Source of the DNA: a virus
Virus record (IMG/VR): IMGVR_UViG_3300034061_001002
Coordinates: 1 to 20,134 of that record
DNA length: 20,134 bases
Strand: one strand, 5' to 3'
Position numbers and translations under genes: made by a program. Positions 373 to 17,235 of the stretch are shown one piece after another; within the stretch, counting starts at the first letter, position 1; every line of letters starts with the position of its first letter. The notes beneath the pieces were generated by a model, which saw only the letters and a list, made by a program, of their open reading frames with translations, was not told where the DNA came from and did not search any database.

Positions 373-1167
373 ATGTCATGCCCTACCCACTCTTGCAACT
401 GCTGCAAGGGAGCCTGCTGCTGCGGTCGACACACCTGCACGCAGCTAAAGTGCGACGAGTGCGAAAGCACCACCTCCGTCACCTCGACCAAGGGGTACGG
501 ACTGTTCATGGGGTACGGCCAACTCTGTGCCGACCATGACTCTGGGTCGCCGCCGTCGTACTACCCGTACTGCGACCGGCCTGTTGGCTGGTGTTGCAAC
601 AAGGCCACGGGTTCGTGTGCCCGCGATTCCGTAAACGGGCCGACAATCTCCCAGTGTGAGTGCTACCGGGAGAAGGGTTTGCCGCCGACCATTGAGTGGC
701 AGGCCAACCCGTTTTGCGAAGACCCCACGCAGCCGTGCTGCCCATACGGCGTGTGCTGCTACACCAACGGCACATGCGGCAACGAGACGAAGTGCATGTG
801 CGAGTACCTGGGAGGCAACTTCCTTGAGGCTGGCGAGGAGAACGTCTGCGACACGGGGGCCTGCTGTTCGGGGACGACCTGCACGGTGCGGACCAAGTGT
901 GCATGCTCCGTGATCGGCGGGGCGACGTTCAAGGGTTACGGGACGACCTGTAGCCCAAACCCATGCACCACATGCTCTCTGGACTCCGACTGTCCAGAGG
1001 GTGCGGCCAAGTGCTGCAACGGCACGTGCATCCCATCGGAGTGCTGCGTCATCGCCATCTCCACCACGTGCCAGGCAACCTGCAATCTTGGGTGTACGCT
1101 TATCACTTCCGGCCCAAATGCCGGGAAGTTCAACTGCTTCCGCAACGACTGCAACCCACTGCCATGA
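373..1167 (+). CDS. Cysteine-rich tandem-repeat protein (264 aa, 45 Cys)
   Basis: About 17% of residues are cysteine. The protein is built from roughly four divergent modules of 35-45 residues (about 13-52, 71-115, 126-159 and 161-198). Each follows the pattern GaCC-x-G-x-C, then a CxC or C-x2-C pair, then an aromatic/glycine stretch ending in C; GACCSGTTC and GYGTTCSPNPC are from the clearest copy. A last segment (199-225, CSLDSDCPEGAAKCCNGTC) is of a different, WAP- or Dickkopf-like spacing. There is no signal peptide or membrane segment. Such GACC repeats occur in bacterial extracellular proteins and some phages, where they are presumed disulfide-stabilised small folds. A virion-surface or adhesion role is my inference. 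The start has GGAG ten bases upstream. The stop overlaps the next gene as ATGA, implying coupling. Confidence 0.75.
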   Translation: MSCPTHSCNCCKGACCCGRHTCTQLKCDECESTTSVTSTKGYGLFMGYGQLCADHDSGSPPSYYPYCDRPVGWCCNKATGSCARDSVNGPTISQCECYREKGLPPTIEWQANPFCEDPTQPCCPYGVCCYTNGTCGNETKCMCEYLGGNFLEAGEENVCDTGACCSGTTCTVRTKCACSVIGGATFKGYGTTCSPNPCTTCSLDSDCPEGAAKCCNGTCIPSECCVIAISTTCQATCNLGCTLITSGPNAGKFNCFRNDCNPLP

Positions 1168-1697: not shown

Positions 1698-2244
1698 GGA
1701 AACAGCCAAGCGGTTTGGGATCGACCCAATCAAGGTGCCCGACCGGCAGAAGCTGACCGAAGCTGTCATCCAAGCTCGGGCTGGCGGCGACGTCCCGAAG
1801 GAAATCGCCCTCGTTGCCCCAGAACCCCCAGCCGCTCCCGCCGATCCGCCTCCTGCCGCACCGCCCCCGCCGCCCGCTGGCAACAACCAGCAAGCCAGGG
1901 CAATGAACCAAGCCCACTCGGTGGTGTACGGGGCTCCGGTCATCGACCCGACGCACATGAGCAACCTCATGGAGAGCCAGCGGTCGCTCAGCAAGACCGA
2001 GTCGTACATCGCCAAGGAGAACGAGTCTCGGGTCGAGCAACTCAAGGAGGAGGCCGAACGCCAGCATGAGAAGGAGATGCTGGCCATGAAGCAGCAGGGC
2101 AGGGACAGGGAGTCCTCCTTGATCGACCGGCTTGGCAAGGAGTCGTCTCGCGGTGGCTCGCTTCGCGTCTGGGACCCCGCAAGCAAGTCCTGGAAGTACG
2201 GCAACAAACTCCAGGTTGGCCGTGGCGGGGCAAGGCTCACATGA
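1684..2244 (+). CDS. Proline-rich/coiled-coil phage protein (186 aa), unknown function
   Basis: Three regions are visible. Residues 1-40 are a short helical head (LEETAKRFGIDPIKV...) that resembles a small DNA- or protein-binding helix bundle. Residues 45-70 are a proline/alanine linker with runs of P. Residues 95-155 are a long charged helix rich in E, K, Q and R (YIAKENESRVEQLKEEAER and on), likely a coiled coil. The C-terminus is glycine-rich and basic. A head-linker-coiled-coil layout upstream of capsid genes would suit a virion-internal or scaffold-associated protein, but I recognise no family. The ATG at 1684 lies 14 bases before the previous stop and the gene's own stop overlaps the next start as ATGA. 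It therefore sits in the middle of a translationally coupled chain. Confidence 0.7.
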   Translation: MPSLEETAKRFGIDPIKVPDRQKLTEAVIQARAGGDVPKEIALVAPEPPAAPADPPPAAPPPPPAGNNQQARAMNQAHSVVYGAPVIDPTHMSNLMESQRSLSKTESYIAKENESRVEQLKEEAERQHEKEMLAMKQQGRDRESSLIDRLGKESSRGGSLRVWDPASKSWKYGNKLQVGRGGARLT

Positions 2245-2930
2245 ACCCACTCAACGCCGCCAGTCGATTTCTTGTCGACCGAATCGCGGATGTAGCCAAC
2301 GCCGCTGCAACACGCGTCGGTGGTGGCAATCGCACGCGGGCCATGCTGGCTGCTCGCCGTGGCATCAATGTTCTACCGCTCCCAGGTTCTGGGGCGGAAA
2401 GGCAGGCTGTCCTGGACAACCCGGCACTCTCGCCCAGTGTCGCCTATCGGCTGAAAAACAACTTCATCTCTGGCGGGTTCGTTCCTGGCGACCGGCAAAC
2501 GTCCAACATTGGAACGGCCATCTACCCGGAGGGCAACAACGCCCTCAGAGACCATGAGATCAACCACGGGTACTGGGAGGCGGCTGTACGCGACCCGACC
2601 GACATGCCAGCGTTCATGCGGTGGTTGGTAGGCCGCGTGAAGGAAGCGGCCCCCGGCGATGAGTACAGGAGGGCCGAGGCCACTCGCAATCTGTTCAACG
2701 AGATCGCCGCCCAGATGCGAGGGGGCCGCAATTTCACGGACATCCCCGCCGAGACGTACGCACGCCTGCACGCGAACAACCCAGAGCTTGCCGAGGCGTA
2801 CCGTGCCTTCGGTCGATTCCAGGCTGGGGCCGAGGGAATGGCTGGGGGGGCAATCGGAGGCGTGTTGGGTGCCTCTGCTGGACTCGGCATAGACACGCTC
2901 GGTGGTCTTCTTGACGATTCGGAGATGTGA
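2241..2930 (+). CDS. HEXXH zinc-metallopeptidase-like protein with C-terminal glycine zipper (229 aa)
   Basis: The sequence HEINH at residues 105-109 matches the zincin HEXXH motif, and a candidate third ligand, E154 in NEIAAQ, lies 45 residues downstream within a helix. This spacing and the NALRDHE context fit minimal metallopeptidases seen in phage polyvalent proteins. Residues 1-25 start MNPLNAASRFLVDRIADVA, a leader-like amphipathic helix resembling the MPNPLNRA leaders of the genes at 3880-5649. Residues 199-224 form a glycine-zipper hydrophobic segment (AGGAIGGVLGASAG) able to enter a membrane. Zincins hydrolyse peptide bonds; the substrate is unknown. Possibilities are an ejected protease, a maturation protease for the leaders, or an inactive relative. 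Start and stop overlap neighbours (ATGA at 2241; TGATG at 2928-2932). Confidence 0.65.
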   Translation: MNPLNAASRFLVDRIADVANAAATRVGGGNRTRAMLAARRGINVLPLPGSGAERQAVLDNPALSPSVAYRLKNNFISGGFVPGDRQTSNIGTAIYPEGNNALRDHEINHGYWEAAVRDPTDMPAFMRWLVGRVKEAAPGDEYRRAEATRNLFNEIAAQMRGGRNFTDIPAETYARLHANNPELAEAYRAFGRFQAGAEGMAGGAIGGVLGASAGLGIDTLGGLLDDSEM

Positions 2931-3880
2931 TGCCTGCATTTGCTGGACCACTCAAGTCCGGGTACATCCCGGCGGCAGCCGCTGGACCGAACATCCCCTG
3001 GCTGGTGGATGACGCCAAGCAGAAGATTGCTGTCCAGAGGCCGGTGGAGTTGCCGAGCCTAGCCAGCCGGATGTTCCATCACCCTGGCGTCTTGGGATAC
3101 GCCATGCGTGACCAGGATGAGTACAACGACGCCGTCAAGCACGACCTCCTCGTCAAGCGTCTTCGGGAGATTCGCGACCAGTTCCCGAACGAGTTCGCCA
3201 ACACCAACGCTGGCACCGGTCCAGATGGCAAGCCCATCCAGTGGGGCGATGTCCCGCTGGACCAAGACACCACCCCGTCGCCGTACAAGTGGCGTGGAAT
3301 CTCTGCCCCCGGCCAGCCGATGCGAGAGGGGTCTGACTGGCTTCGTTCGGTGTTCTCAATCCCGCAGAACGCCGTCCGGGTGATGGGCGGAAGCGTCAAC
3401 CAAGCCAAGGCCGAGAGCGACATGGCCAAGGGGTTGGACACCGCACTCATGGGCATCCCCTCCATGATCCAAGGCAAGGACGCCAACCCAGAGTGGTCGG
3501 GTGACAAGGAGCGTCCCTTTGCTGCCCTGGAGCGACTGACGGAATACCCGGAATCGCAGGGGCTCCTGGAAGCCAAGCCTTCCAATTCCGATGAGGCGAG
3601 GGACGGAATCACCTCGTTTGGCCAAGCCTTCGTGGACATCGGTGCCCCCGAGAACACGGCCACCTACATGGTTGGCGGTCTTCTCGATGGCCTGACCGAC
3701 CCATTCCCGCTTGGTCCAGCGGCTTTCCGATCGGCCATGGCCAAGCAGTACGGCAAAGCTGCTATCCAAGCCGCCGCCGAGTTTGGCCCCAACCTTGGAG
3801 CCAGCTATGTCGCAGCCCCCCGCAAGCCAGTCGCGCCGCCAGAACCCGTTGTCCATAAGCACTGGTCGGAGTACCACTGA
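2930..3880 (+). CDS. Unknown phage protein, candidate virion-internal (316 aa)
   Basis: I recognise no family. The preferred start is the ATG at 2930, which overlaps the preceding TGA (TGATG). A GTG at 2927 would add one residue. The N-terminus (MPAFAGPLKSGYIPAAAAG) is small-residue rich. The middle has a helical charged segment near residues 60-85 (YNDAVKHDLLVKRLREIR), then a loop rich in P, D and G. Around residues 235-265 there is a mildly hydrophobic, glycine-containing stretch (TATYMVGGLLDGLTDPFP), followed by an alanine-rich helix (AIQAAAEFGPNLGAS). The tail is proline-rich. It sits between the metallopeptidase-like gene and the four MPNPLNRA genes and is coupled to both sides. A role with that cassette is therefore likely, but this is positional inference only. 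Confidence 0.7.
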   Translation: MPAFAGPLKSGYIPAAAAGPNIPWLVDDAKQKIAVQRPVELPSLASRMFHHPGVLGYAMRDQDEYNDAVKHDLLVKRLREIRDQFPNEFANTNAGTGPDGKPIQWGDVPLDQDTTPSPYKWRGISAPGQPMREGSDWLRSVFSIPQNAVRVMGGSVNQAKAESDMAKGLDTALMGIPSMIQGKDANPEWSGDKERPFAALERLTEYPESQGLLEAKPSNSDEARDGITSFGQAFVDIGAPENTATYMVGGLLDGLTDPFPLGPAAFRSAMAKQYGKAAIQAAAEFGPNLGASYVAAPRKPVAPPEPVVHKHWSEYH

Positions 3881-4461
3881 TGCCGAACCCGCTGAACCGC
3901 GCAATGGCAATAGCGTCTAAGGTGGTTGGGGAACTCCCTGTCGGGAAAGTACTTCCGCCTCCACCGCCGCCCCCTCCCGCTCCTGCCAGGGCGTTCCATC
4001 AAGCAGAGGCACCTGCTGCGAACTCTCGTCTTGACGAAGTTCTTGCTGCCGTGCAGCGAGCCATTTCCAAGCAGCCTGTTCCGGAAGGCCACTCTCGGCT
4101 GTATCGGTACGGCCCAGTGCCTGCTGACGCGTCTGGCGACGGCACGCGAACAGTGTTCGGTAAAACGTATACGCCAGAGGAGTGGGACAAGTACCTCGCT
4201 TCTAAAGGAATACGAAACACAGAGCCGACCGGCGCTCGCGGACGGTGGTTTACGGACGTCCCAGAAGAACTTGACTACTACGTCAAGGACGCAGCTTTTC
4301 CAAAGCCCCTGTATGCCGTGGACGTTCCATCCGCAAGGCTTCCAGACATAAACGTGTCGCGCACCCCGTACTCAGAAAGTTCATCGAACCACGCGCGTGA
4401 GTTTGTGGTGCCTGACGAATACCTGACGCAAGCAAGGCGGCTTCTTGAGGGACGCCAGTAA
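3880..4461 (+). CDS. MPNPLNRA-leader protein with ADP-ribosyltransferase-like C-terminal domain (193 aa)
   Basis: Residues 1-19 are the shared leader MPNPLNRA plus a helix (MAIASKVVGEL). Residues 26-33 are eight prolines forming a hinge. The C-terminal domain (about 72-185) has RLYRYGP (73-79), GRWFTDVPEELDYYV (121-135), LYAVDVP (144-150) and REFVVPDEYL (173-182). These are in the order and spacing I associate with small phage ADP-ribosyltransferase-like folds, where an R or H near the first strand, a [FY]T segment and a late E line the NAD pocket. E174 in EFVVP could be the catalytic glutamate. The family call is tentative because no canonical H-Y-E or R-S-E triad is unambiguous. The ATG overlaps the previous TGA (TGATG) and its stop overlaps the next ATG (TAATG). 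Codon use is less G+C-biased than in the portal gene. Confidence 0.65.
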   Translation: MPNPLNRAMAIASKVVGELPVGKVLPPPPPPPPAPARAFHQAEAPAANSRLDEVLAAVQRAISKQPVPEGHSRLYRYGPVPADASGDGTRTVFGKTYTPEEWDKYLASKGIRNTEPTGARGRWFTDVPEELDYYVKDAAFPKPLYAVDVPSARLPDINVSRTPYSESSSNHAREFVVPDEYLTQARRLLEGRQ

Positions 4462-5048
4462 TGCCGAACCCACTGAACCGAGCGGTCGGGCAGCTTGATG
4501 GGCTTCTGGCAAGGCTGGCTGGGTACAGCACACGCTCGCCTCGCGTCCACTCTGGCGTGAGGTTCAATCCGGCTGACGGTCTTGGCGGAACCCCCGACGC
4601 CGCCAACATTGACTACCGTGGCTTCCAGGCGTACATGACACCGGCTGAGTTCCTTGGGCTGAACCCGGCAAGGAATTATCCGTACGACCATGTCCAGGAA
4701 GCCATCCGGTCTGGCCAGGAAATCAGCACGCCCATGCTGATGGTCGACCGACTCCCGAAAGGCGAGGGCTGGAAGGTGGTGGGGCACGAAGGCCGTGGAC
4801 GCATGATGTCGTTGGCCGAGCAATCCCCGGACTCCCTGTTCCCCGTTGGCGTCCACCCGTACGGAGAAGTTCGGGCCAGGAACCTTACGCCCGACGACTT
4901 GTTCCGAGCTATCAAGCCCGAGATGGACAACTCGCGGTCTGTTGCTGTGCCGAGGATGGCAATCCTGAACAAGACGCCATACGTTCGCCCTGGGCTTGGC
5001 GACGACGAGGCCGTGGTCCGTGCTCTCCTTGAGATGCTGGGGGAATAA
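4461..5048 (+). CDS. MPNPLNRA-leader protein with ParB-like domain (195 aa)
   Basis: Residues 1-20 are the shared leader MPNPLNRA followed by a helix (VGQLDGLLARLAG). The rest has a pattern I associate with ParB/sulfiredoxin-like nuclease-fold domains found in phage polyvalent proteins. These have FQAYMTPAEFLGLNP (55-69), an IRSGQEISTPMLMVD stretch (82-96) and VVGHEGRGRMMSL (106-118), the last resembling the GHxGRHR signature strand-turn-helix that binds nucleotide in ParB-like proteins. Here the second position reads GRGR instead of GRHR, so catalytic competence is uncertain. ParB-like domains bind or hydrolyse CTP/ATP or act on DNA; the target here is unknown. The gene is coupled on both sides by TAATG overlaps. 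The alternative is a structural protein that merely resembles the motif. Confidence 0.65.
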   Translation: MPNPLNRAVGQLDGLLARLAGYSTRSPRVHSGVRFNPADGLGGTPDAANIDYRGFQAYMTPAEFLGLNPARNYPYDHVQEAIRSGQEISTPMLMVDRLPKGEGWKVVGHEGRGRMMSLAEQSPDSLFPVGVHPYGEVRARNLTPDDLFRAIKPEMDNSRSVAVPRMAILNKTPYVRPGLGDDEAVVRALLEMLGE

Positions 5049-5635
5049 TGCCGAACCCACTGAACCGAGCGATGAACGTGGCGAAGTCGGTTGTTGATGC
5101 AGCCATGGCACCGGCCGCACGCAAAGTAGACCCGGCGTCCCTGCCTCCTATCCCGGAAGACTATGTGCGACTGACGCACAACACATCTCGGGTTGATCCG
5201 TTCCAGGCCGGTGCCCCGTTCCGCTATGCCGGTGAAATCATCGACAGCAGCACGGACTCGTTCACCAACAACGAACAGGTCGCCAACTGGGTCAGCCAAG
5301 GCAAGCGAGACAGCTTCGGCCCGCTCACCTTGCTGATGGACATGCCGATCGACGAGCACAACAAGAGGATGTGGCGGTTCGGGTGGAGTGGGTACAAGCC
5401 CGTGCCAAACAGCAACATCATCGGCCACATCGACGAGGCAGGGAAGTTCGTCCCACTCAAGGTCGACACGACCAACGCCGACCAGTATTCGGGTCGTCTG
5501 TATCGCGAGTCAAAGGAGTCTGACTACGTTCGGCGTCTTCTCAAAGACATGGACGACGCCATTCTCGACGACTACAACCCGATCCCGCCGCCCGTCAAAT
5601 ACATCAGACCGCCCGGCGACCCGGACGTTTTCTAG
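5048..5635 (+). CDS. MPNPLNRA-leader protein with possible ADP-ribosyltransferase-like domain (195 aa)
   Basis: Residues 1-22 are the shared leader MPNPLNRA plus a helix (MNVAKSVVDAAM). The body starts YVRLTHNTS (39-47), which resembles the first strand of ADP-ribosyltransferase-like domains (R/H near L.H.T). It continues with DSSTDSFTNNEQV (67-79), an LLMDMPIDEHNKR segment (95-107) and VPNSNIIGHID (119-129). I recall this series from conserved phage proteins in which the same order of motifs occurs. A clear catalytic glutamate is not certain. The C-terminus (165-195) is acidic then proline-rich. Start overlaps the preceding TAA; unlike its two predecessors it is followed by a 13-base gap containing AAGGAG before the next gene. 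Function is a guess at fold level only. Confidence 0.6.
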   Translation: MPNPLNRAMNVAKSVVDAAMAPAARKVDPASLPPIPEDYVRLTHNTSRVDPFQAGAPFRYAGEIIDSSTDSFTNNEQVANWVSQGKRDSFGPLTLLMDMPIDEHNKRMWRFGWSGYKPVPNSNIIGHIDEAGKFVPLKVDTTNADQYSGRLYRESKESDYVRRLLKDMDDAILDDYNPIPPPVKYIRPPGDPDVF

Positions 5636-5648
5636 GCAAGGAGCGTCA

Positions 5649-6614
5649 ATGCCCAACCCGCTCAACCGTGCGGTCGACATGGCTGGTGATGCAGTCCGCA
5701 AGATCATCGCCTACCACGGCTCTCCGCACAACTTCGACAGGTTTGATGCCAGCAAGATCGACACTGGCGAGGGCGTTCAGGCATTTGGTCACGGCCTGTA
5801 TTTTGCGGGCAACGAAAGCACGGGGCAGTACTACCGCGACACGCTTGGTGGCCAAAAGATCGTTGACTACCTCGACGGGAATCCGCTCGACAGAAGCGAA
5901 TACGCCAAGTATGCAACTGGCGAGGTCGCATACCCGAGCATTGACACTGAGCAGGGGGTGCTTGCAAGACTGCTTTCGACTCCAGGGTTTCCGATTCAAG
6001 GCTCGTCCTCATTGCTGGACCGGCAGATAAAGAGAATCGAAACGCCATCAAGGAGACACTCAAACTCGCTGGCCTTGCGGTTAATGGGCACCCCGTGGGA
6101 AAGCGCTTCGGTCGATGAGCTAAAAGCAGCCAGAGACATTGCGGCAAATCTAGAGAGCCGCACATCTAGCGTGCGTTCCCCGGCAGGAGTCATGTACCAA
6201 GTAGAGATTGGGCATCCGGAGTCATCTCTTCTGGATTGGGATGCGCCAATGAGTCAACAGCCCCTGCCTGTTCGCCGGGCGTTTGGTGACTCGGGCATGG
6301 ACCTTCCTGGAGACGGACGCAGGGTTTACATGGACGCGGTCACGCGATTGGGGGAGGGCTTTGACGATGATGCGACTGGATTTTTGGCTGGCAAGGCTGC
6401 TGCCGAAGAGTTGCTTTCCGAGGGAATACCGGGCATCAAGTACCTAGACGGAATGTCTCGCAATCTTGGGGCAGGCAGCCGCAACTACGTCATGTTTCCC
6501 GGCACCGAGGACTCCATCACCATCCTCCGCAAGTACGGTTTACTGCCCGCCGTAGGGGTCGGAGCGGCCTCCGCAGGGAGTGCCATGCAAAATCCTGCGC
6601 AAGATTCGCAGTAG
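5649..6614 (+). CDS. MPNPLNRA-leader ADP-ribosyltransferase of polyvalent type (321 aa)
   Basis: The first 18 residues are the shared leader (MPNPLNRAVDMAGDAVRK). The catalytic domain begins IIAYHGSPHNFDRFD (19-33), with H23 expected to hold NAD. GEGVQAFGHGLYFAGN (40-55) carries the conserved Y, and the late part GIPGIKYLDGMSRNLGAG (259-276) and RNYVMFPGTEDSI (278-290) is the usual C-terminal signature. This matches the ART domain of phage polyvalent proteins (ART-PolyVal), which transfers ADP-ribose from NAD+ to a target. The target here is unknown. A weakly hydrophobic Ala/Gly tail (298-313) follows. The start at 5649 is chosen because AAGGAG (5638-5643) sits five bases upstream and the leader is conserved; the frame stays open to 5388, inside the previous gene. 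Bases 6001-6060 are 52% G+C, low for this window. Confidence 0.85.
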   Translation: MPNPLNRAVDMAGDAVRKIIAYHGSPHNFDRFDASKIDTGEGVQAFGHGLYFAGNESTGQYYRDTLGGQKIVDYLDGNPLDRSEYAKYATGEVAYPSIDTEQGVLARLLSTPGFPIQGSSSLLDRQIKRIETPSRRHSNSLALRLMGTPWESASVDELKAARDIAANLESRTSSVRSPAGVMYQVEIGHPESSLLDWDAPMSQQPLPVRRAFGDSGMDLPGDGRRVYMDAVTRLGEGFDDDATGFLAGKAAAEELLSEGIPGIKYLDGMSRNLGAGSRNYVMFPGTEDSITILRKYGLLPAVGVGAASAGSAMQNPAQDSQ

Positions 6615-6664: not shown

Positions 6665-7735
6665 ATGTCCATCGAAGACTCCATCACTTCCGACGCGACG
6701 AGCGAATCGCTCGGCTCCCAGGATGCCGGTGTTTCCGGTTTCTCTGGGGCTGACGCTGGCTCGCAGCCCCCGCAGTCGACCGACCCATCGGCCGGTTCTT
6801 CTGCCGGTGGCTTCAGTACTCCGTACGAAGCGTTCCGGCATCTCCCCGACTTCCAGGGCAAGGACGACCTTGCGATCGCACGGGACTTGTACAAGGCCCA
6901 TGCGGAGCGGCAGGAGCTTTCCCGGCAACTCAACCAGTTTCAGACGTTGCTTCCGGCCACGCAGGACTACGTTCGCCATGAGCGTGAGTTCCAGGCGTGG
7001 AAGCAAGCCCAGGCCGAAGCGGCGCGGCCCAGGGCTCCGGAGCAGCCGAAGTGGTGGAATCCGCCGAAGGTCGAGGATTCGTGGAAGAGTTACATCGTCC
7101 GCGATCCCCAGACCGGGAGGGAGGTGATCTCGCCTGACGCCCCGTACGAAGCCCAGCAGGCTCTGCGTCAATACCAGAGCTACACGGCTGACTTCGTCCG
7201 ACGCTTCGCCACCGACCCCGAGTCGACGCTGAAGCCGTTCGTGGAGCAGGTCGCCGTCCAGAAGGCCCAGGAGATGGTGCAGAACCATCTCAACCAGTAC
7301 GCCACCACGAACTACGTCCAGGACCTGAACCGGCAGAACGCGGACTGGCTCTACGACGACCAGGGCCGCACGACCCAGGCCGGTCAGGCGATCTCGCACT
7401 ACATCAACGAAGCCGCCAGCATGGGCATCCAATCGGCCCAGGACCGTTGGCGGTACGCGACGGGCTCGCTCCAGCGTGACCTGCTCGCGGCCCAATACCA
7501 GCGAGTCATGGCTGGCCAGCAGGCCCCCCAGGCTCAGCCGCAATCCATCCCGCAGGCCCCAGTGGGCGTCCAGCAGCAGGACGACGCCGCGGCTCGCGAC
7601 ATGCAGTTTCTTCGGGAACGGGCGATGCACGCCCCGAACCGAAGTGGTGGCTCAACTGAACCGAGGGCACCGCGCCCCCGGCAGAGTTTCAATGATCGAC
7701 TTCGCTCCCAACTTGAGCATGACGGAGTAATCTGA
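6665..7735 (+). CDS. Probable capsid scaffolding protein (356 aa)
   Basis: The assignment rests on position directly before the major capsid gene (three-base gap) and on composition. Residues 1-55 are an acidic, Ser/Gly-rich disordered head. Residues 55-125 are helical and charged (DLAIARDLYKAHAERQELSRQ). Residues 150-290 are largely helical and Q/A-rich, with a Q/P-rich linker (QAPQAQPQSIPQAP). The C-terminus is basic (RPRQSFNDRLRSQLEHDGVI), which would suit a helix docking on the capsid protein's inner face. Scaffolding proteins chaperone procapsid assembly and leave or are degraded; they evolve too fast for motif recognition. I see no protease domain fused to it. An alternative is an internal virion protein. 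The ATG at 6665 is preceded by AGGA at 6651-6654. Confidence 0.7.
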   Translation: MSIEDSITSDATSESLGSQDAGVSGFSGADAGSQPPQSTDPSAGSSAGGFSTPYEAFRHLPDFQGKDDLAIARDLYKAHAERQELSRQLNQFQTLLPATQDYVRHEREFQAWKQAQAEAARPRAPEQPKWWNPPKVEDSWKSYIVRDPQTGREVISPDAPYEAQQALRQYQSYTADFVRRFATDPESTLKPFVEQVAVQKAQEMVQNHLNQYATTNYVQDLNRQNADWLYDDQGRTTQAGQAISHYINEAASMGIQSAQDRWRYATGSLQRDLLAAQYQRVMAGQQAPQAQPQSIPQAPVGVQQQDDAAARDMQFLRERAMHAPNRSGGSTEPRAPRPRQSFNDRLRSQLEHDGVI

Positions 7736-7737
7736 CA

Positions 7738-8850
7738 ATGAGTTCTAATGTTGACTGGGCACGTTCCATTGCCACGACCATTGTCAACCATCTCCGCGAG
7801 GAGGAGGTTGCATCGCTCCGTAAGTACAAGGTTTTCTCGCTGATCGAGGGTTCCGGCAACGTCCGGACCAACGAGGCTGGGCGAGGTTTCGACTGGGAAA
7901 TCCAGTACAGGAATCACACTCCGTCCGGCAATAACGGCGAGACTCCTCGTTCGTTCGCTCGCCAGAACCTGTGGAAGCGGGTTGAGCTGGAGTACAGAGG
8001 AGCACAAGTCACGGACGCGATCTACAAGCGCGAGATGCTTGAGAACCGTTCGTCTTCTGCCCTGGTCAACGTCGCCGGGAAGATGGCTTCCCGCCTCCTG
8101 ACGTCGATGGAGCAGTATCTGGCGCGTGAGTGGGTTCAGGACGGTTACGCCAGCGGCAACGAGCTTCGGTTCCACGGGACCGAGTCGTTCATGGGCGTGA
8201 ACGGCACTGTCAACATCGCGGACGGCACGCAGCGTTCGGCCAATGCCGCCGATCCCTTCGGTTACCCGAGCGACACCTACGGCGGTCTCTCGACCGTCCT
8301 GGGTTCGTACGGTGGATCGCAGGCTTCCGGCAGCGTGTGGCCGAACGGGTACGCCGACCCGGAGTTCGACTTCTTCTCTCCCGTGATCGTCAACTTCACC
8401 TCGACCTACTTCGGTGGGTCGACCTGGAGTTCGAACTGCACCAAGGCTCTCCGCGAGGCGATCCACCAGACTCGCCGCAACGACAGCAAGGAAGACCAGA
8501 TCGACACCGTGTTCCTGGATCGTCGACTCTTCATCGACTTCCTCAACACGCTCGACGCCAAGGAGCGAGTGATCGTCAGCCGCACCAACGGCCTCCGGTC
8601 CTACGGCTTCACGGACGTCTTCGAACTCGACGGCGTCGAGGTGTCTTCGGAGAACTCTGTGCCGGTGAACACTGGGTACGGAATGGCCATGGGCAATGTT
8701 GAGTTGCTCTGCATGGAAGGCCAGCTTCTGAACTCTGAGGGTCCGTTCTACGACGAAATCACGCAGCAGTTCCGCTACGTGGTGTCGTGCCTCGGCAACC
8801 TCAAGTTCAAGTCACCGAGGAACTTCTTCAAGCTCCAGGCTCTTGCTTGA
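7738..8850 (+). CDS. Major capsid protein (370 aa)
   Basis: The length, position after the scaffold candidate and sequence style fit an HK97-fold major capsid protein of podovirus-like phages. The N-terminal helix (IATTIVNHLREEEVASL) and the stretch RKYKVFSLIEGSGN (28-41) leading into GRGFDWEIQYRNH (48-60) recall capsid proteins that start an N-arm and E-loop with G...W.V.Y. Middle sections are rich in helix-capping S/T/G, then a long Gly/Ser/Asn region (165-240) that could be an insertion domain. The end, FRYVVSCLGNLKFKSPRNFFKLQALA, looks like the closing A-domain strand. No delta-domain or maturation cleavage site is evident. It assembles the icosahedral shell around the DNA. High expression is expected. 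No terminator follows directly, so the decoration-like gene should be co-transcribed. Confidence 0.85.
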   Translation: MSSNVDWARSIATTIVNHLREEEVASLRKYKVFSLIEGSGNVRTNEAGRGFDWEIQYRNHTPSGNNGETPRSFARQNLWKRVELEYRGAQVTDAIYKREMLENRSSSALVNVAGKMASRLLTSMEQYLAREWVQDGYASGNELRFHGTESFMGVNGTVNIADGTQRSANAADPFGYPSDTYGGLSTVLGSYGGSQASGSVWPNGYADPEFDFFSPVIVNFTSTYFGGSTWSSNCTKALREAIHQTRRNDSKEDQIDTVFLDRRLFIDFLNTLDAKERVIVSRTNGLRSYGFTDVFELDGVEVSSENSVPVNTGYGMAMGNVELLCMEGQLLNSEGPFYDEITQQFRYVVSCLGNLKFKSPRNFFKLQALA

Positions 8851-11179: not shown

Positions 11180-12631
11180 ATGATCCAGAAGTTCAAGGTC
11201 GGTATCTGCACGTTCAGCTACGGCGGCAATGGAGGCATCTCCTCCGAGGTGCCCGACATCCGGGAGTGGATGATCCCCCTGGTGGCTTCGGCCCAGTCCG
11301 ACCCTCGCATTGACGCCATCCAGGTCTGGAACCTGTCCGACACGCCGATCACCATGACCCGCAACCGGGCAGTGATCCAGGCTCGCCAGAACGGCTGCGA
11401 CTTCCTGCTCATGGTCGACTCCGACATGAAGCCGGACCTGTACTTCGGCTCCGACCCCCTGGCCCAGCAGTTCTTCCAGTCGTCTTTCGACTTCCTGGCC
11501 AAGCACTACCACAAGGGCCCGGCGTGCGTCGGTGCCCCGTACTGCGGGCCCCCGCCGAACGAGTGCGTCTACGTGTTCCGCTGGGCGAACTTCCAGAACG
11601 AGAACCCGAATCCGGACTTCGCCCTGGAGATGTACGACCGCCACACTGCCGCCAAGCTGGCTGGCATCCAAGAGTGTGCGGCTCTCCCGACCGGCCTGCT
11701 CATGTACGACATGCGGCTGTTCGACATCACCGAGCCGAAGCAAGAGGGTGACAAGCCCTGGTTCTACTACGAATGGAAGGACGTTTATTGCTCGGAGAAG
11801 GCGTCGACCGAGGACGTCACCAACACCCGAGACCTGTCCCTCGTTGGCACGCAGAAGCTGGGGTACAACCCCGTGTTCTGCAACTGGGACGCCTGGGCCG
11901 GTCACTGGAAGCCGAAGTGCGTCGGCAAGCCCACGCCCGTGGACGCCAGCGCCATCGCCTCCAAGCTCAAGGAGTCATGGGAGGCCGGGTACGACGGCAG
12001 TACCAAGCTCCTCGACCTTCGGCCCATCGACAGTCCGGTCGTGCCCAAGGGCGAGATGACTCGGCCCACCGCCCTGTCCCTGCTCCCAGACGGGTTCGAC
12101 GACATGGGCATGGGGCTTCCGGCCCAGGATGCCGACGCTCTCCGGACCATGATCGAGCGGTTCAAGGAGCAGTTCGGGCACGCCCCGCGTGTCCTTGAGA
12201 TCGGATCGTGGGCTGGCAAGTCAGCCATCATCATGGTCGAGTCCGGTGCCGCCTGCGTCCACTGCATCGACACCTGGGAGGGCTCCAAGAACGACGACGG
12301 CACGAAGGCTTACACCGGTGCCGTCCCTCCCATCCAGGTGTTCTTCGACAACACCGAGGCGTACAGGCGTCAACTGAAGATCAAGTGGTCTAAGGCTCGC
12401 TCGCCCGACATCGCCAAGAACTTCACCTATCCCCCGGTCCCGCACGACATCGTCTACATCGACGCCGAGCATGACTACGAATCGGTCATGGCAGACATCG
12501 CGGCGTGGCGTCCGATCGTCAAGTGGGTTGCCGGTCACGACTACCACTCCTTCGAAGGCGTGCGTAAGGCCGTGGCCGATTCCGGACTTGTCCCAGAGGT
12601 GCATGGAAATGTCTGGTGGGCCACACCTTGA
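11180..12631 (+). CDS. Fused glycosyltransferase / SAM-methyltransferase (483 aa)
   Basis: The start is set by GAGGAG five bases upstream; the frame is open further up, inside the preceding gene. Residues 1-250 look like a GT-A-type glycosyltransferase: SDTPITMTRNRAVIQA (53-68), FLLMVDSDMKPD (75-86) with a DSD (DxD-like, 80-82) metal/nucleotide-sugar site, and ALPTGLLMYDMRLF (168-181). Residues 330-483 look like a class I methyltransferase: VLEIGSWAGKSA (338-349) is the glycine-rich SAM loop, HCIDTW (361-366) the acidic strand, and IVYIDAEHDYESV (424-436) plus AGHDYH (451-456) a Methyltransf_24-like pattern. Acceptor unknown; virion protein, DNA base or host-surface glycan are all possible. 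It overlaps the small terminase start by 23 bases. Confidence 0.8.
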   Translation: MIQKFKVGICTFSYGGNGGISSEVPDIREWMIPLVASAQSDPRIDAIQVWNLSDTPITMTRNRAVIQARQNGCDFLLMVDSDMKPDLYFGSDPLAQQFFQSSFDFLAKHYHKGPACVGAPYCGPPPNECVYVFRWANFQNENPNPDFALEMYDRHTAAKLAGIQECAALPTGLLMYDMRLFDITEPKQEGDKPWFYYEWKDVYCSEKASTEDVTNTRDLSLVGTQKLGYNPVFCNWDAWAGHWKPKCVGKPTPVDASAIASKLKESWEAGYDGSTKLLDLRPIDSPVVPKGEMTRPTALSLLPDGFDDMGMGLPAQDADALRTMIERFKEQFGHAPRVLEIGSWAGKSAIIMVESGAACVHCIDTWEGSKNDDGTKAYTGAVPPIQVFFDNTEAYRRQLKIKWSKARSPDIAKNFTYPPVPHDIVYIDAEHDYESVMADIAAWRPIVKWVAGHDYHSFEGVRKAVADSGLVPEVHGNVWWATP

Positions 12632-13166
12632 GCGGCGGGCTTGCCTGACTTGCGGCAAGACCTACGCCCTGGAGCCTAGGTTCTGGCACAAGGCCAAGGA
12701 TGGCTTTCACGCCCACTGCAAGCGGTGCCGCAACGGCAGCATCAAGAAGAAGCGTGCCGCCAAGCGGAACGAGAAGCTTGAGGAAATCGAGAAGGGTGCC
12801 GTCGATCTCTTCCTGGCATCGGCTCGGGTGGGGGGTGCCAACATCCCTCACTCGGCCGAACTGCTGGAAGTGCTCATGCGGTACTTCGGTGGGGCTGGCG
12901 GGTTTGCCAACGCCTACATGAAGCAGTTCTTCGACGCACCATCCGGCGGTGCGTTCCGGACCAAGATGCTCGACACGGTGGTTCGCTTGGTCCAGGCCAA
13001 CACCGCCATGGGTGGAGCCCAGAAGCCGCTGGAGTTCTGGACTGAAGAAGAACTCCAGAACGAACTGAAGAAGAAGCTGCTGCTTGCGGCCCAGGGCATG
13101 AAGCTCATCGAGGTCACCCCAGAGCCTGTCTCCGCACCGGCTGAGCCCGAGCGAGAGACGGCATGA
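12609..13166 (+). CDS. Probable terminase small subunit with N-terminal zinc ribbon (185 aa)
   Basis: It is directly upstream of and coupled to the large terminase (ATGA overlap). Residues 8-45 form a CxxC-x21-CxxC zinc-ribbon/HNH-like segment (C12, C15, C37, C40; CLTCGKTY and CKRCRNG), followed by a basic stretch (KKKRAAKRNEK). Residues 58-165 are helical: LLEVLMRYFGGAGGFANAYM, then FRTKMLDTVVRLVQANTAMGG and EFWTEEELQNELKKKL, as in small terminase regions that follow a DNA-binding head. Small terminases recognise the packaging site and regulate the large subunit. Start: GAGG (12596-12599) is nine bases before ATG 12609; ATG 12603 would be only three bases away. Role is inferred from neighbourhood and style. 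Confidence 0.7.
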   Translation: MSGGPHLERRACLTCGKTYALEPRFWHKAKDGFHAHCKRCRNGSIKKKRAAKRNEKLEEIEKGAVDLFLASARVGGANIPHSAELLEVLMRYFGGAGGFANAYMKQFFDAPSGGAFRTKMLDTVVRLVQANTAMGGAQKPLEFWTEEELQNELKKKLLLAAQGMKLIEVTPEPVSAPAEPERETA

Positions 13167-14836
13167 AGAAGCACCCGCCGATCCCTCCACCTCCCATACC
13201 CGAGGTGGCAGAGTCGAACATCACGCAGCATGCGATGTCGCAACTGCGTGACCTCCAGGCGGAACTGGCCAATCGCCAGATCGAGGCCCTGCGTCTCTAC
13301 GAGCCCATGCCCAAGCAGGACGAGTTCCACAGGTGCATGGCGTCCGAGCGGATCGTCATCGGCGGCAACCGGTCGGGTAAATCCCTATCGACGTTCATCG
13401 AGGACGCACGGGCGGTCACCGGCCAGGACCCCTACAACAAGTACCCCAAGGAGAACGGCAACCTCGCCATCATCGGCAAGAACTGGTCTCACATCGGCTT
13501 GGTCGTTTACCCCATGCTGTTCCGAGCCGGGGCGTTCCGCATGATCCGCGACGAGGTGACTGGTGTCTGGAGGGCATACCGCCCAGCCACCGACAGCCAC
13601 CGCCTCTTGCAGTCCAAACCCGCTCCTCCTTTAATACCGCCCCGCCTTATTAAAGACATCGCGTGGGTCCAGAAGAACGCTGGGTATCTGAACTCCGTCG
13701 AGCTTACCAACGGCTGGCGAATCTTCGTGTTCTCCAGCGAGGGCGAGCCGCCCCAGGGTTTCCAGGCTGACCTTGTCCACATCGACGAGGACATCAACAA
13801 CGAGCGGTTCGTCGGGGAAATGCAGGCCAGGCTCTCTGACCGTAAAGGGCGGTTTGTCTGGAGTGCAATGCCCCATTCAAAAAATGACGCCTTGCTCGGC
13901 TTGTGCGAGCGTGCGGAGCGTGTGGCTGACAATCCGGACGCAATCATCCGGAAGTTCACCCTGCGGTTTCTTGACAACGATCACATCGACAACGAGGAGA
14001 AGAAGAAGAACGTCGAGCGGTGGTCCGACCTTGGCGTCGAGGAACTCCGCATGCGTGCCGAGGGTGAGTTCACCCACGAATCCACGCTGATGTACCCGAC
14101 GTTCAACACCAGCGTCCACGTGATCCCGCGTTCGGAACTGATGACAATCCCGGATGACTGGACAAGGTACGTTGCCATTGACCCAGGCCACACGGTCATG
14201 GCCGCACTGTTCGGTGCCGTGCCTCCGGGCGAGAAGTTTCTGCTAATCTACGACGAGCTTTACATCCGGGATTGCAACGCACTGATCTTCGGTGAGCACT
14301 TCGCCAAGAAGGCCGAGGCTCAATCGTTCTGGTCGTTCATCCTGGACATGCACGGCGGTCGGTTGCGAGACATCGGTGGTGGTCGACTGCCGCACGAACT
14401 GTACTCGGAGGAGTTGAGGAAACGGAACATCCGGTCGCGTGCGTCAGGCTACGGATTCATCCCTGGCTCCGACGACATCCCGGCTCGCACGGCCATGGTT
14501 CGGCAGATGCTCCACATCCGCGGCGACGGGACGACCAAGCTGAAGTTCTGGGAGGGTGCCTGTCCGAACCTGCTCCGCGAACTGAAGCGATACCGCAAGA
14601 AGACGACGACCCTCAATGGACAGACCTACGTGACCGACGAGCCCCAGACGCGGGGCGAGGTCCACGCCTGCCAAGTCCTTGAGTACCTGTGTGCCTACGA
14701 ACCCAAGTACCACCAACCCCCCAAGGTATTTGGCCCCCGGACCTGGATTGACAAGTACCTCACCGACAAGGCGCGGCGGAAGCGAAGTAGCTCCGATTCG
14801 TGCATTGTCCTTGGCCCCATAGGGAAACAGCCATGA
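13163..14836 (+). CDS. terL: Terminase large subunit (557 aa)
   Basis: The ATPase domain shows Walker A GGNRSGKS (67-74) and Walker B LVHIDED (204-210) with the catalytic acidic pair. The C-terminal nuclease domain begins YVAIDPG (336-342), the first aspartate strand of the RNase H-like fold. A second acidic cluster, LLIYDELYIRD, follows at about 360-370. Length is normal for a phage large terminase. The protein pumps DNA into the procapsid through the portal and cuts concatemers. The start overlaps the small terminase stop (ATGA) and its stop overlaps the next start (ATGA). Residues 5-13 are proline-rich. Bases 13629-13655 carry a perfect AT-rich inverted repeat with unusual codons (see findings). 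No frameshift or intein is seen. Confidence 0.95.
   Translation: MKKHPPIPPPPIPEVAESNITQHAMSQLRDLQAELANRQIEALRLYEPMPKQDEFHRCMASERIVIGGNRSGKSLSTFIEDARAVTGQDPYNKYPKENGNLAIIGKNWSHIGLVVYPMLFRAGAFRMIRDEVTGVWRAYRPATDSHRLLQSKPAPPLIPPRLIKDIAWVQKNAGYLNSVELTNGWRIFVFSSEGEPPQGFQADLVHIDEDINNERFVGEMQARLSDRKGRFVWSAMPHSKNDALLGLCERAERVADNPDAIIRKFTLRFLDNDHIDNEEKKKNVERWSDLGVEELRMRAEGEFTHESTLMYPTFNTSVHVIPRSELMTIPDDWTRYVAIDPGHTVMAALFGAVPPGEKFLLIYDELYIRDCNALIFGEHFAKKAEAQSFWSFILDMHGGRLRDIGGGRLPHELYSEELRKRNIRSRASGYGFIPGSDDIPARTAMVRQMLHIRGDGTTKLKFWEGACPNLLRELKRYRKKTTTLNGQTYVTDEPQTRGEVHACQVLEYLCAYEPKYHQPPKVFGPRTWIDKYLTDKARRKRSSSDSCIVLGPIGKQP
13629..13655 (+). repeat. AT-rich inverted repeat inside terL
   Basis: CTTTAATA (13629-13636) and TATTAAAG (13648-13655) are perfect inverse complements separated by 11 G+C-rich bases. 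They encode the segment around LIPPRLIK with codons TTA, ATA, ATT and AAA, which are rare in the surrounding gene. Confidence 0.7.
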
Positions 14837-15186: not shown

Positions 15187-17235
15187 ATGCACGACAACCC
15201 ACTTCGGGCCATCTCGGCGTCCTGGCTCAAGCTCTTGAAGCAGGCCAAGGACCACAAGAAGCCCTTCAACGACGATGCTTGGGAAGCCATGCAGTTCTTC
15301 TGCGGCGATCCCAACTTCATGTGGGAGAACTCCTACGCCCGTGGGGAACGGGGGTACAACAAGGGCATTGAGCCGCCCCCGTTCCGCATGCAGGTTAACC
15401 GGGTGTGGGAGGCCGTCCGCTTGTTTGCGGCGGTCATCCACCACCGGAACCCGACCCGCACCGTCACGGCCCGCAAGTACCCGGCCGTCGAGCCGATGAT
15501 GCTCGGGATCATGCCCCAGCCTCCGCAGCCAATGATGGGCCCCCAGGGGCCTGTGATCGGTCCGGACGGCCAGCCCGTCATGCTCCCGGACCAGGGCTTG
15601 ATGATGTACCAGCAGATGCTCCAGCAGCAGGAGTTCTTCCTGAAGAAGCGAGAGCTTGTGTCGAAGCTGCTGGAGGACTACCTGAACTACACCCCCGTCG
15701 AACTGAACACCAAGACCCACAATCGCAAGGTGGTGGAAGAGGCGTTCATCAAGGGCGTCGGTGTGTGGTGGCATGAGATGTACGCCCCGGCCGGGTCGGA
15801 CGTCCAGATGGCTGGGTCGTTCTACGACACCTTCGACAACCTCGTCTGGGACCCGGACGCCGACGACTTCCAGGACATCCGCTGGGCAGCCCGGCGTCGG
15901 TGCCAGCCCTTGGACGAGGTGGCGGCACGGTTCAATCTCTCCCGCGAGCAACTCAAGGGCCACCTGGAAAGCTACACCTCCCGTGCGGGCGAGGGCGAGC
16001 GTGGCCATGAGTTCAAGAAGAAGACCGGCAAGACGAACGACCTGATCGTCTACTGGGAAATCTACTCCAAGACCGGCTTCGGTGACCGGCTCAAGGGGGC
16101 CGAGATCGACGAACGGATCAAGGGCTCGTTCGACTCCGTGGGTCAGAACTGCTACATCGTCGTGGCCGAAGGCGTGGACTTCCCGCTCAACATCCCGCCC
16201 TCGATGATGGACGAGCCCATCGAGGAGCCGCTGGACGACGGACTGGGCGGCGTGGGTGGCGAACCCGCCAAGACTGCCGTTCCCCAGAAGCTGTTCATGG
16301 CCGCTCAGTGGCCGGTGCCTTTCTGGATCGAGCCCCAGGGTTGGCCGTTCACGCTCTACTCCCTGCACTGGAAGCCTGGGTACTCCTACCCGGTGTCCAT
16401 GATCCGCCCTGGGATCGGTGAGCTTCGCTTCATCAACTGGGCCATGAGTTGCTTGGCGACGAAGATTTCCATCTCGTCCAAGACTCTCATCGGCGTGGCC
16501 AAGGCCGCTGACCCGGAACTCAAGGACAAGATTCTCAACACCTCCGAGAACGGCTTCAACGTCGTGGAAATCTCGGAGGCCATTGGCCGCAACGTCAACG
16601 ACGTCATCTCGGTGTTCCAGATGCCGCAGGTGACGCAGGACATGTGGCACATCATTGCCGAAGTGACGGCAATGTTCGATCGACGCGTCGGGTTGACCGA
16701 ACTCGTCTACGGCATGACGCGGAACCAGTTCCGGAGTGCCGCTGAGGCAAACGTCAAAGCGGAGCAGATTAGCGTTCGCCCTGACGACTACGCTAACATC
16801 CTCGAGGATTCGTTGTCGGAGTGTGCCCGCAAGGAGGCGTTGCTGGCCCGGTGGTTCGTGCGTCCCGAGGACATCGCTCCGCTCATGGGTCCGATGGCTG
16901 CCCAGGCTTGGCAGATGCACGTTCGCAATCAGAACCCGGACCAGATCGTCCGCGAGTACGACTACCGCATCGAAGCCGGTTCGGCACGCAAGCCGAACGT
17001 CGCCACTCGCGTCGAGAACATCAACAACGCCATGCAGATTCTCATGCCTGTTGCCCAGGGCATGCTCCAAGCCGGGAAGCCCGAACTGTTCAACGCCCTC
17101 ATCGAAGACTGGGGCAAGGCTCTCCAGGTGGACGTCGGCAAGTACATCTTGCCCCCGCCGCCACCGCCGCCACCACCACAAGGCCCCGTCGAGGGCCCGC
17201 CACCACAGGAAGGACCACCCGATGGACAGCGCTGA
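15187..17235 (+). CDS. Portal protein (682 aa)
   Basis: Size of about 75-80 kDa, position behind the terminase and motifs fit a podovirus-type portal. The N-terminus reads MHDNPLRAISASWLKLLKQA. Residues 60-95 contain FRMQVNRVWEAVRLFAAVIHHRNPTR, which resembles the conserved 'N.......F...l....P' entry region of portals. The middle has many W/Y/D-containing segments (VWWHEMYAPAGSDVQ, LVWDPDADDFQDIRW) and a long helical region (FINWAMSCLATKISISSKTL). The C-terminus is a run of nine prolines followed by a P/G/Q tail. The portal forms the dodecameric DNA gate at a capsid vertex and docks the terminase and tail. The start is given by AGGAG at 15176-15180. Its end overlaps the next gene by 14 bases. 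Confidence 0.85.
   Translation: MHDNPLRAISASWLKLLKQAKDHKKPFNDDAWEAMQFFCGDPNFMWENSYARGERGYNKGIEPPPFRMQVNRVWEAVRLFAAVIHHRNPTRTVTARKYPAVEPMMLGIMPQPPQPMMGPQGPVIGPDGQPVMLPDQGLMMYQQMLQQQEFFLKKRELVSKLLEDYLNYTPVELNTKTHNRKVVEEAFIKGVGVWWHEMYAPAGSDVQMAGSFYDTFDNLVWDPDADDFQDIRWAARRRCQPLDEVAARFNLSREQLKGHLESYTSRAGEGERGHEFKKKTGKTNDLIVYWEIYSKTGFGDRLKGAEIDERIKGSFDSVGQNCYIVVAEGVDFPLNIPPSMMDEPIEEPLDDGLGGVGGEPAKTAVPQKLFMAAQWPVPFWIEPQGWPFTLYSLHWKPGYSYPVSMIRPGIGELRFINWAMSCLATKISISSKTLIGVAKAADPELKDKILNTSENGFNVVEISEAIGRNVNDVISVFQMPQVTQDMWHIIAEVTAMFDRRVGLTELVYGMTRNQFRSAAEANVKAEQISVRPDDYANILEDSLSECARKEALLARWFVRPEDIAPLMGPMAAQAWQMHVRNQNPDQIVREYDYRIEAGSARKPNVATRVENINNAMQILMPVAQGMLQAGKPELFNALIEDWGKALQVDVGKYILPPPPPPPPPQGPVEGPPPQEGPPDGQR
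17207..17214 (+). promoter_or_regulatory. Ribosome binding site inside portal 3' end
   Basis: AGGAAGGA lies within the proline-rich tail of the portal gene, seven bases before the ATG at 17222. It decides the start of the 92-residue gene and its overlap with the portal. Confidence 0.6.

Follow-up and report, generated by a model that had tools for sequence, protein, structure and literature searches.

A lineage-specific N-terminal helix shared by unrelated proteins of a pre-capsid phage cassette, and its probable role as a virion-loading tag

Why would adjacent phage genes whose protein bodies differ begin with the same eight residues? The question is raised by virus record IMGVR_UViG_3300034061_001002, a stretch of 20,134 bases that was analysed whole (the window), in which four adjacent genes, here called A, B, C and D, all start with MPNPLNRA, followed by an amphipathic helix, and are directly followed by a gene in the scaffold position and then by the capsid gene. 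As described below, the helix occurs on unrelated bodies, is conserved at the peptide level, co-varies within genomes and is confined to this pre-capsid cassette and, in a subset of genomes, to the ejection module. Judging from these patterns, we consider it probable that the leader is an address tag for loading proteins into the virion, by way of the procapsid or the ejection apparatus. The cassette and its downstream neighbours are laid out as follows (relatives are given by their locus labels, L):

2241..2930, plus strand: fifth cassette gene, zincin-like (HEINH), leader MNPLNAASRFLVDRIADVANAA; homologues in L011, L059 and L076
3880..4461, plus strand: gene A, leader MPNPLNRAMAIASKVVGEL; body without a family match
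3880..3903, plus strand: leader copy A, 24 bases
4461..5048, plus strand: gene B, leader MPNPLNRAVGQLDGLLARLAG; tentatively ParB/sulfiredoxin-like body with an invariant GHEGRGRM
4461..4484, plus strand: leader copy B, 24 bases, identical in DNA to copy C
5048..5635, plus strand: gene C, leader MPNPLNRAMNVAKSVVDAAM; body without a family match
5048..5071, plus strand: leader copy C, 24 bases
5649..6614, plus strand: gene D, leader MPNPLNRAVDMAGDAVRKII, which is the full family consensus; ART-PolyVal-type ADP-ribosyltransferase (ART)
5649..5672, plus strand: leader copy D, 24 bases
6665..7735, plus strand: candidate scaffold protein, by position; without a family match
7738..8850, plus strand: major capsid protein (phrog_9953)

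An earlier reading of this DNA, made from its letters alone (the sequence-only reading), had pointed out the four leaders with their helices, the purely synonymous differences between them and the position of the cassette before scaffold and capsid genes, and all three observations hold, the scaffold being called by position and the capsid by its phrog_9953 match. The leader helices of A-D reach maximum hydrophobic moments of 0.54-0.74, and the zincin-like gene at 2241 adds a fifth, related start (MNPLNAA). The 24-base copies differ at third codon positions only, with at least six changes, 6/6 of them synonymous; given that ~29% of random changes in the leader codons are synonymous, arithmetic on the sequence yields P ~5e-4 for an all-synonymous outcome. 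The B and C copies are, however, identical in DNA, and thus the window holds three independent versions of the leader, not four. Within IMG/VR the exact octapeptide is found in the window and in two ~99%-identical records only, bar one chance match (L001); a degenerate form of the leader is widespread among relatives.

Relatives were collected through the capsid protein and reduced to 60 distinct loci, all of them from metagenomic genomes, with gene starts set by simple rules. Nearly every one has a pre-scaffold stretch with a changing set of genes, many of which carry the leader (e.g., MPNPIRYVDDAGDSVRQVIRAYHGSP, MANPISGIDEAGRKIAGLLTYNPG, MPSWLDDAGDAVRRLTQ and MDREGDKIRKLIPN). In its general form, as seen across the 60 relatives, the tag consists of an amphipathic helix with the core ~D-x-x-G-D-x-(V/I)-R-x-(L/V)-(I/L), preceded by residues that are genome-specific. 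The sequence-only reading is refined accordingly: what generalises is not the octapeptide but the D..GD.(V/I)R.L(I) helix, whose hydrophobic moment is 0.63, as compared with 0.42 in control N-termini.

The breadth of the tag was measured with a profile trained solely on the N-termini of one family of 84-91 residues, with the threshold placed at the 99% level of internal segments, and with bodies clustered without their first 28 residues. Above this threshold were 45/428 other cassette N-termini, belonging to nine other body families; the genes that lie downstream of the capsid gave 0/491 N-termini above it, and internal segments 1%. The search against other phage proteins that had been proposed with the sequence-only reading therefore places the leader on nine further body families, not on a single domain family. 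Tagged proteins include ARTs (PF18760-like), a C5 DNA methyltransferase in L052 (PF00145, 1e-21; leader MAQPFRYADAAGDVIRKL), a kinase-like family (ABC1-like, weak; the match is in L205, of the same family as the tagged L201 protein), a methyltransferase-like family (weak), several zincins (HExxH proteins), DUF6321, a 474-residue family without a Pfam match, and the gene B family. The tag also behaves as an add-on: in other phages, the alignment with homologues of the 84-residue family begins only at residue 10-14 and that with DUF6321 homologues mostly at residue 6-15, and two DUF6321 proteins in other phages start with MAKSPAW.. and are without the tag.

As to the bodies in the window, the sequence-only reading had listed one clear polyvalent-type ART (D), one ParB-like protein (B) and two further ART-like proteins (A and C). 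For gene D, the match to ART-PolyVal PF18760 is weak (E=2.3e-4), its 22.4 bits being below the curated cut-off of 31.2, but the assignment is backed by tblastn homologues that in other phages are genes for head or internal proteins (the ART of relative L027 scores 26.7 bits), and a look-up of solved structures gave nothing for D. The AlphaFold model of gene B has a separate N-terminal helix of low confidence, and its nearest folds by Foldseek, with Osa best and Noc, sulfiredoxin and ParB-N also among the top, would be compatible with a ParB/sulfiredoxin-like fold, as in a DdrB-like ParB domain, where a conserved arginine is expected; the best E, however, is just 0.065, making this a weak, model-based assignment. 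The ART-like reading of A and C was not confirmed, as neither matches a family in the scans or has diverged homologues in the relatives searched.

A tag on several bodies might also be the residue of paralogy, i.e., of one ancestor, such as an ART gene, whose N-terminus was kept while its bodies diverged. This would fit D being an ART, the possibility that A and C are ARTs that have diverged, and the adjacent pairs of tagged ART genes that occur in some relatives (L067). Yet such an ancestor would also have to account for the tag on a C5 methyltransferase, zincins, DUF6321, kinase-like and ParB/sulfiredoxin-like proteins, whose bodies are without mutual homology beyond the recognised families and short C-terminal stretches. 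Paralogy is thus largely refuted at the family level, and we rate it the least probable of the explanations considered.

The leaders were also compared within and between genomes. Within a genome, unrelated bodies carry leaders that resemble each other more closely than they do when genome labels are shuffled inside body families (mean 25.8 vs 17.9, P=2e-4), and the same holds when the window is left out (21.8 vs 17.5, P=8e-4). Examples of such same-genome pairs are MPNPVRFADQAGDAVRQVI and MPNPVRFVDQAGDAIRAVI in L016, MATNEELV and MATNEEMV in L014, and MPSPSQID and MASPSQVD in L063. In 13 leader pairs from relatives (11 within the cassette and 2 between cassette and ejection module), which were chosen for their similarity and so bear on mechanism, not on significance, 94 codons specify identical residues, and 44 of these are the same codon vs 44.2 expected for independent choice. 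Because the residues are kept while the silent sites are randomised, recent DNA copying is excluded as the cause, and the tag is conserved as a peptide. The selection on the peptide that had been claimed from the window is thereby borne out in the relatives.

These codon counts bear directly on a further explanation, namely that the leader is a recombination seam for cassette swapping that spreads by gene conversion, its peptide having no role. Such mosaicism would explain the DNA identity of copies B and C, as well as a kinase-like protein in L201 that has the same run as the ARTs up to IRAYHG, indicating that leaders are sometimes exchanged. It does not predict codon agreement at the level of independent choice with the residues kept, nor a copy in the ejection module (described below) that is 11-12/24 bases off the A-D leaders yet retains NPLN. 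It is therefore already disfavoured, and we hold it to be very unlikely.

The ejection-module copy was found in a near-identical (99.6%) genome of 60.7 kb, read nearly whole, where an 818-residue gene in the tail/ejection module (named by position, the genes before it having matches to virion, connector and tail proteins) starts with MANPLNKLVRSAERAGDETLDVIRMFLRL, its leader, MANPLNKLVRSAERAGDETLDVIRMFL, containing NPLN plus AGD..DVIR. Homologue searches with the 818-residue protein gave a single weak match, in the C-terminal part of that protein. The gene after it, conserved in 30/49 records, codes for a protein of 1361 residues; a model of its C-terminal 561 residues matches phage large-polyvalent-protein-associated domains (LPD38-like, E from 1e-13), with ART-PolyVal, RelA/SpoT and Zeta toxin proteins among the names matched. 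This protein has no recognised effector domain, and the solved-structure look-up gave nothing for it. Upstream of its homologues, the L024 gene starts with MPSYYDDAAELIRRLL (MPSYYDDAA..) and the cassette ART of the same genome with MPSYYDDAAKAADDLIRRL, the L026 gene starts with MPNPIRSGVQ.. (cassette, MPNPIRYVDDAGDS) and the L017 gene with MPNPARYADDVADGIRRLL; in L024 and L026 these starts agree with the leaders of their own cassettes. In eight genomes that are nearly complete, the cassette and ejection zones gave 19 hits among their 207 open reading frames vs 3/2330 elsewhere, a count in which the cassette hits are partly circular and the four ejection-zone hits are independent. A chance origin of the sharing is rejected by this control together with the absence of hits downstream of the capsid. 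The sequence-only reading would have been refuted by leaders far from the head genes and without a virion link; the distant copies instead sit in the tail/ejection module, beside the large polyvalent-type protein. The link of the tag to the ejection module is thus real, if partial.

The C-termini of cassette proteins are also distinctive, with a hydrophobicity well above controls; a tag-like motif is not enriched there. An Ala/Gly-rich hydrophobic tail, e.g., RKYGLLAPIAAGAA, is seen on many tagged effectors (ART, the 474-residue family, one kinase-like protein and a singleton in L017; window positions 6500-6614 and relatives), and near-identical tails occur on unrelated bodies, i.e., a 474-residue family protein in L115 and an ART in L053.

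Amphipathic helices and hydrophobic tails could conceivably serve after entry, with the leader directing the effectors not to the virion but to one another or to a host structure (membrane, nucleoid or RNA polymerase). The helix moment, above that of controls, suits such docking, and the Ala/Gly-rich tails would suit a membrane or complex role. However, a host target should constrain the tags across phages of one host and not within one genome, and post-entry docking leaves both the ejection-module tags and the genome-specific co-variation unexplained. We consider it unlikely.

Virion loading is the reading that we favour. In it, host-targeting enzymes that can be exchanged for one another, and sometimes the product of an ejection-module gene, would carry a short amphipathic helix at the N-terminus. 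While the head assembles, this helix would bind a receptor common to all of them within the procapsid, be it the scaffold, the portal or the core of ejection proteins; the separately encoded effectors, once packaged, would enter the host with the DNA. What other phages carry as one-chain polyvalent proteins would here be split into separate polypeptides with a common loading tag. The proposal of a packaging or ejection tag for swappable effectors, made in the sequence-only reading, is thus supported by the nine other body families and by the ejection-module copies; packaging, docking and delivery are what we infer from them. A more specific version, which we put forward tentatively and hold somewhat less probable than its alternatives combined, is a trans-loading system in which a lineage-specific docking helix co-evolves with a receptor in the ejection machinery, so that a leader of 15-20 residues could plug in an open-ended set of swappable effectors and phages sharing a host would not load each other's cargo.

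Several observations weigh against virion loading. Genes A and C of the window lack an assigned body, and some cassette genes are untagged. Ejection-gene N-termini exceed the profile threshold in 5/26 genomes only, and they match the cassette of their own genome only marginally (P=0.02, or 0.033 with the window left out). No receptor is singled out, as Mantel tests tie tag distance to scaffold, capsid, portal and terminase distances alike. Finally, in the phage collection searched there is no cultured phage with this capsid protein and no known cultured member of the family; the portal gave one weak match, and no useful cultured relative was obtained via capsid, portal or the 1361-residue protein.

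How does the tag compare with known systems? How injected proteins are directed into phage heads is poorly understood. In phage P1, whose Dar proteins are injected antirestriction proteins packed in the head, the N-terminal 30 residues of DarB suffice to bring a foreign reporter into the head (PMC9024508), a likeness to the role proposed for the present leader, in which N-terminal targeting would act on cargo of the injected type. Although a signal shared by the Dar proteins had been expected, BLAST searches by the P1 authors showed no consensus N-terminus (PMC9024508); here, a recognisable consensus is common to many effectors. In T4, a short N-terminal sequence directs internal proteins into the prohead (cited in PMC9024508), similar to the short N-terminal leader described here. 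As in T4 and P1, a short N-terminal sequence is common to unrelated proteins, which would presumably be internal to the particle, and their genes adjoin head or ejection genes. The present phage, unlike T4, has a P22-like portal; its remaining recognised packaging genes are as follows:

13163..14836, plus strand: terminase large subunit (phrog_2)
15187..17235, plus strand: P22-like portal protein (PF16510)

The capsid targeting signals of T4 are cut by the prohead protease; for the present leader, we found no evidence of cleavage. P1 has a predicted prohead protease, whereas no protease family was recognised among the proteins scanned, the scan having covered part of the genes. As the closest precedent, the N-terminal signal of P1 DarB ranks equally with the T4 sequence.

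The cargo itself recalls polyvalent proteins, which are believed to enter the host by injection; their domains include ART, kinase, zincin, DNA methylase and ParB-like ones, and their genes adjoin virion genes (PMC5512222). The likeness lies in the enzyme repertoire and its location, the tagged bodies being mostly of the injected repertoire and encoded beside virion genes here as well (PMC5512222). Polyvalent proteins, however, are multidomain chains with at least two disparate domains per polypeptide, whereas the cassette encodes separate polypeptides with a common tag and at most one recognised domain per scanned protein. In the cultured Sulfitobacter phage phiGT1, gene 5 (MT584811) encodes an ART homologous to gene D, two genes before the scaffold and between portal and scaffold; it differs in that the ART is fused to its own longer N-terminal region, without a matching leader. 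Mass spectrometry of phiGT1 virions has been published (PMC10386132, Table S3). Similarly, vir555 has an ART domain inside a 1974-residue gene near an internal virion protein, the 474-residue family matches a gene of Pelagibacter phage HTVC028P that adjoins one for a putative internal virion protein, and DUF6321 lies close to the capsid gene in HTVC115P. No comparable shared tag was found in the open library searched, which covers part of the literature.

In contrast to P1 Dar, cargo of many types can here be seen to carry a signal that is common to them and specific to the genome. One motif marking many cargo types would make signal, receptor and rules testable; the tag could guide the listing of injected anti-host effectors in uncultured phages, and attempts to load proteins into phage particles could start from it.

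The phage family is uncultured and probably short-tailed. One of its contigs, L287 (JAGYIQ010000016.1, 55 kb), was binned with a Pirellulaceae metagenome-assembled genome, a weak hint that the hosts are Planctomycetes. Record IMGVR_UViG_3300049595_001870 (117,778 bases) is probably two phage genomes joined, since it holds two different capsid loci of the family, L078 and L084. Among the untagged genes near the cassette, small HNH-like or zinc-ribbon genes lie between cassette genes in L016, L017, L066 and others, and in L016 and L201 a gene of 287-288 residues with a PAPS-reductase-like look, without a Pfam match, adjoins the scaffold at ~-2000 relative to the capsid gene. At window positions 373-1167 there is a Cys-rich protein of 264 residues (MSCPTHSCNCCKGACCCG..), and in many relatives similar Cys-rich proteins (MACCKCCC..) mark the left edge of the cassette. 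Within the head gene block, at 11181-12631, an open reading frame resembles, judged by eye, a fusion of a glycosyltransferase and a methyltransferase-like protein.

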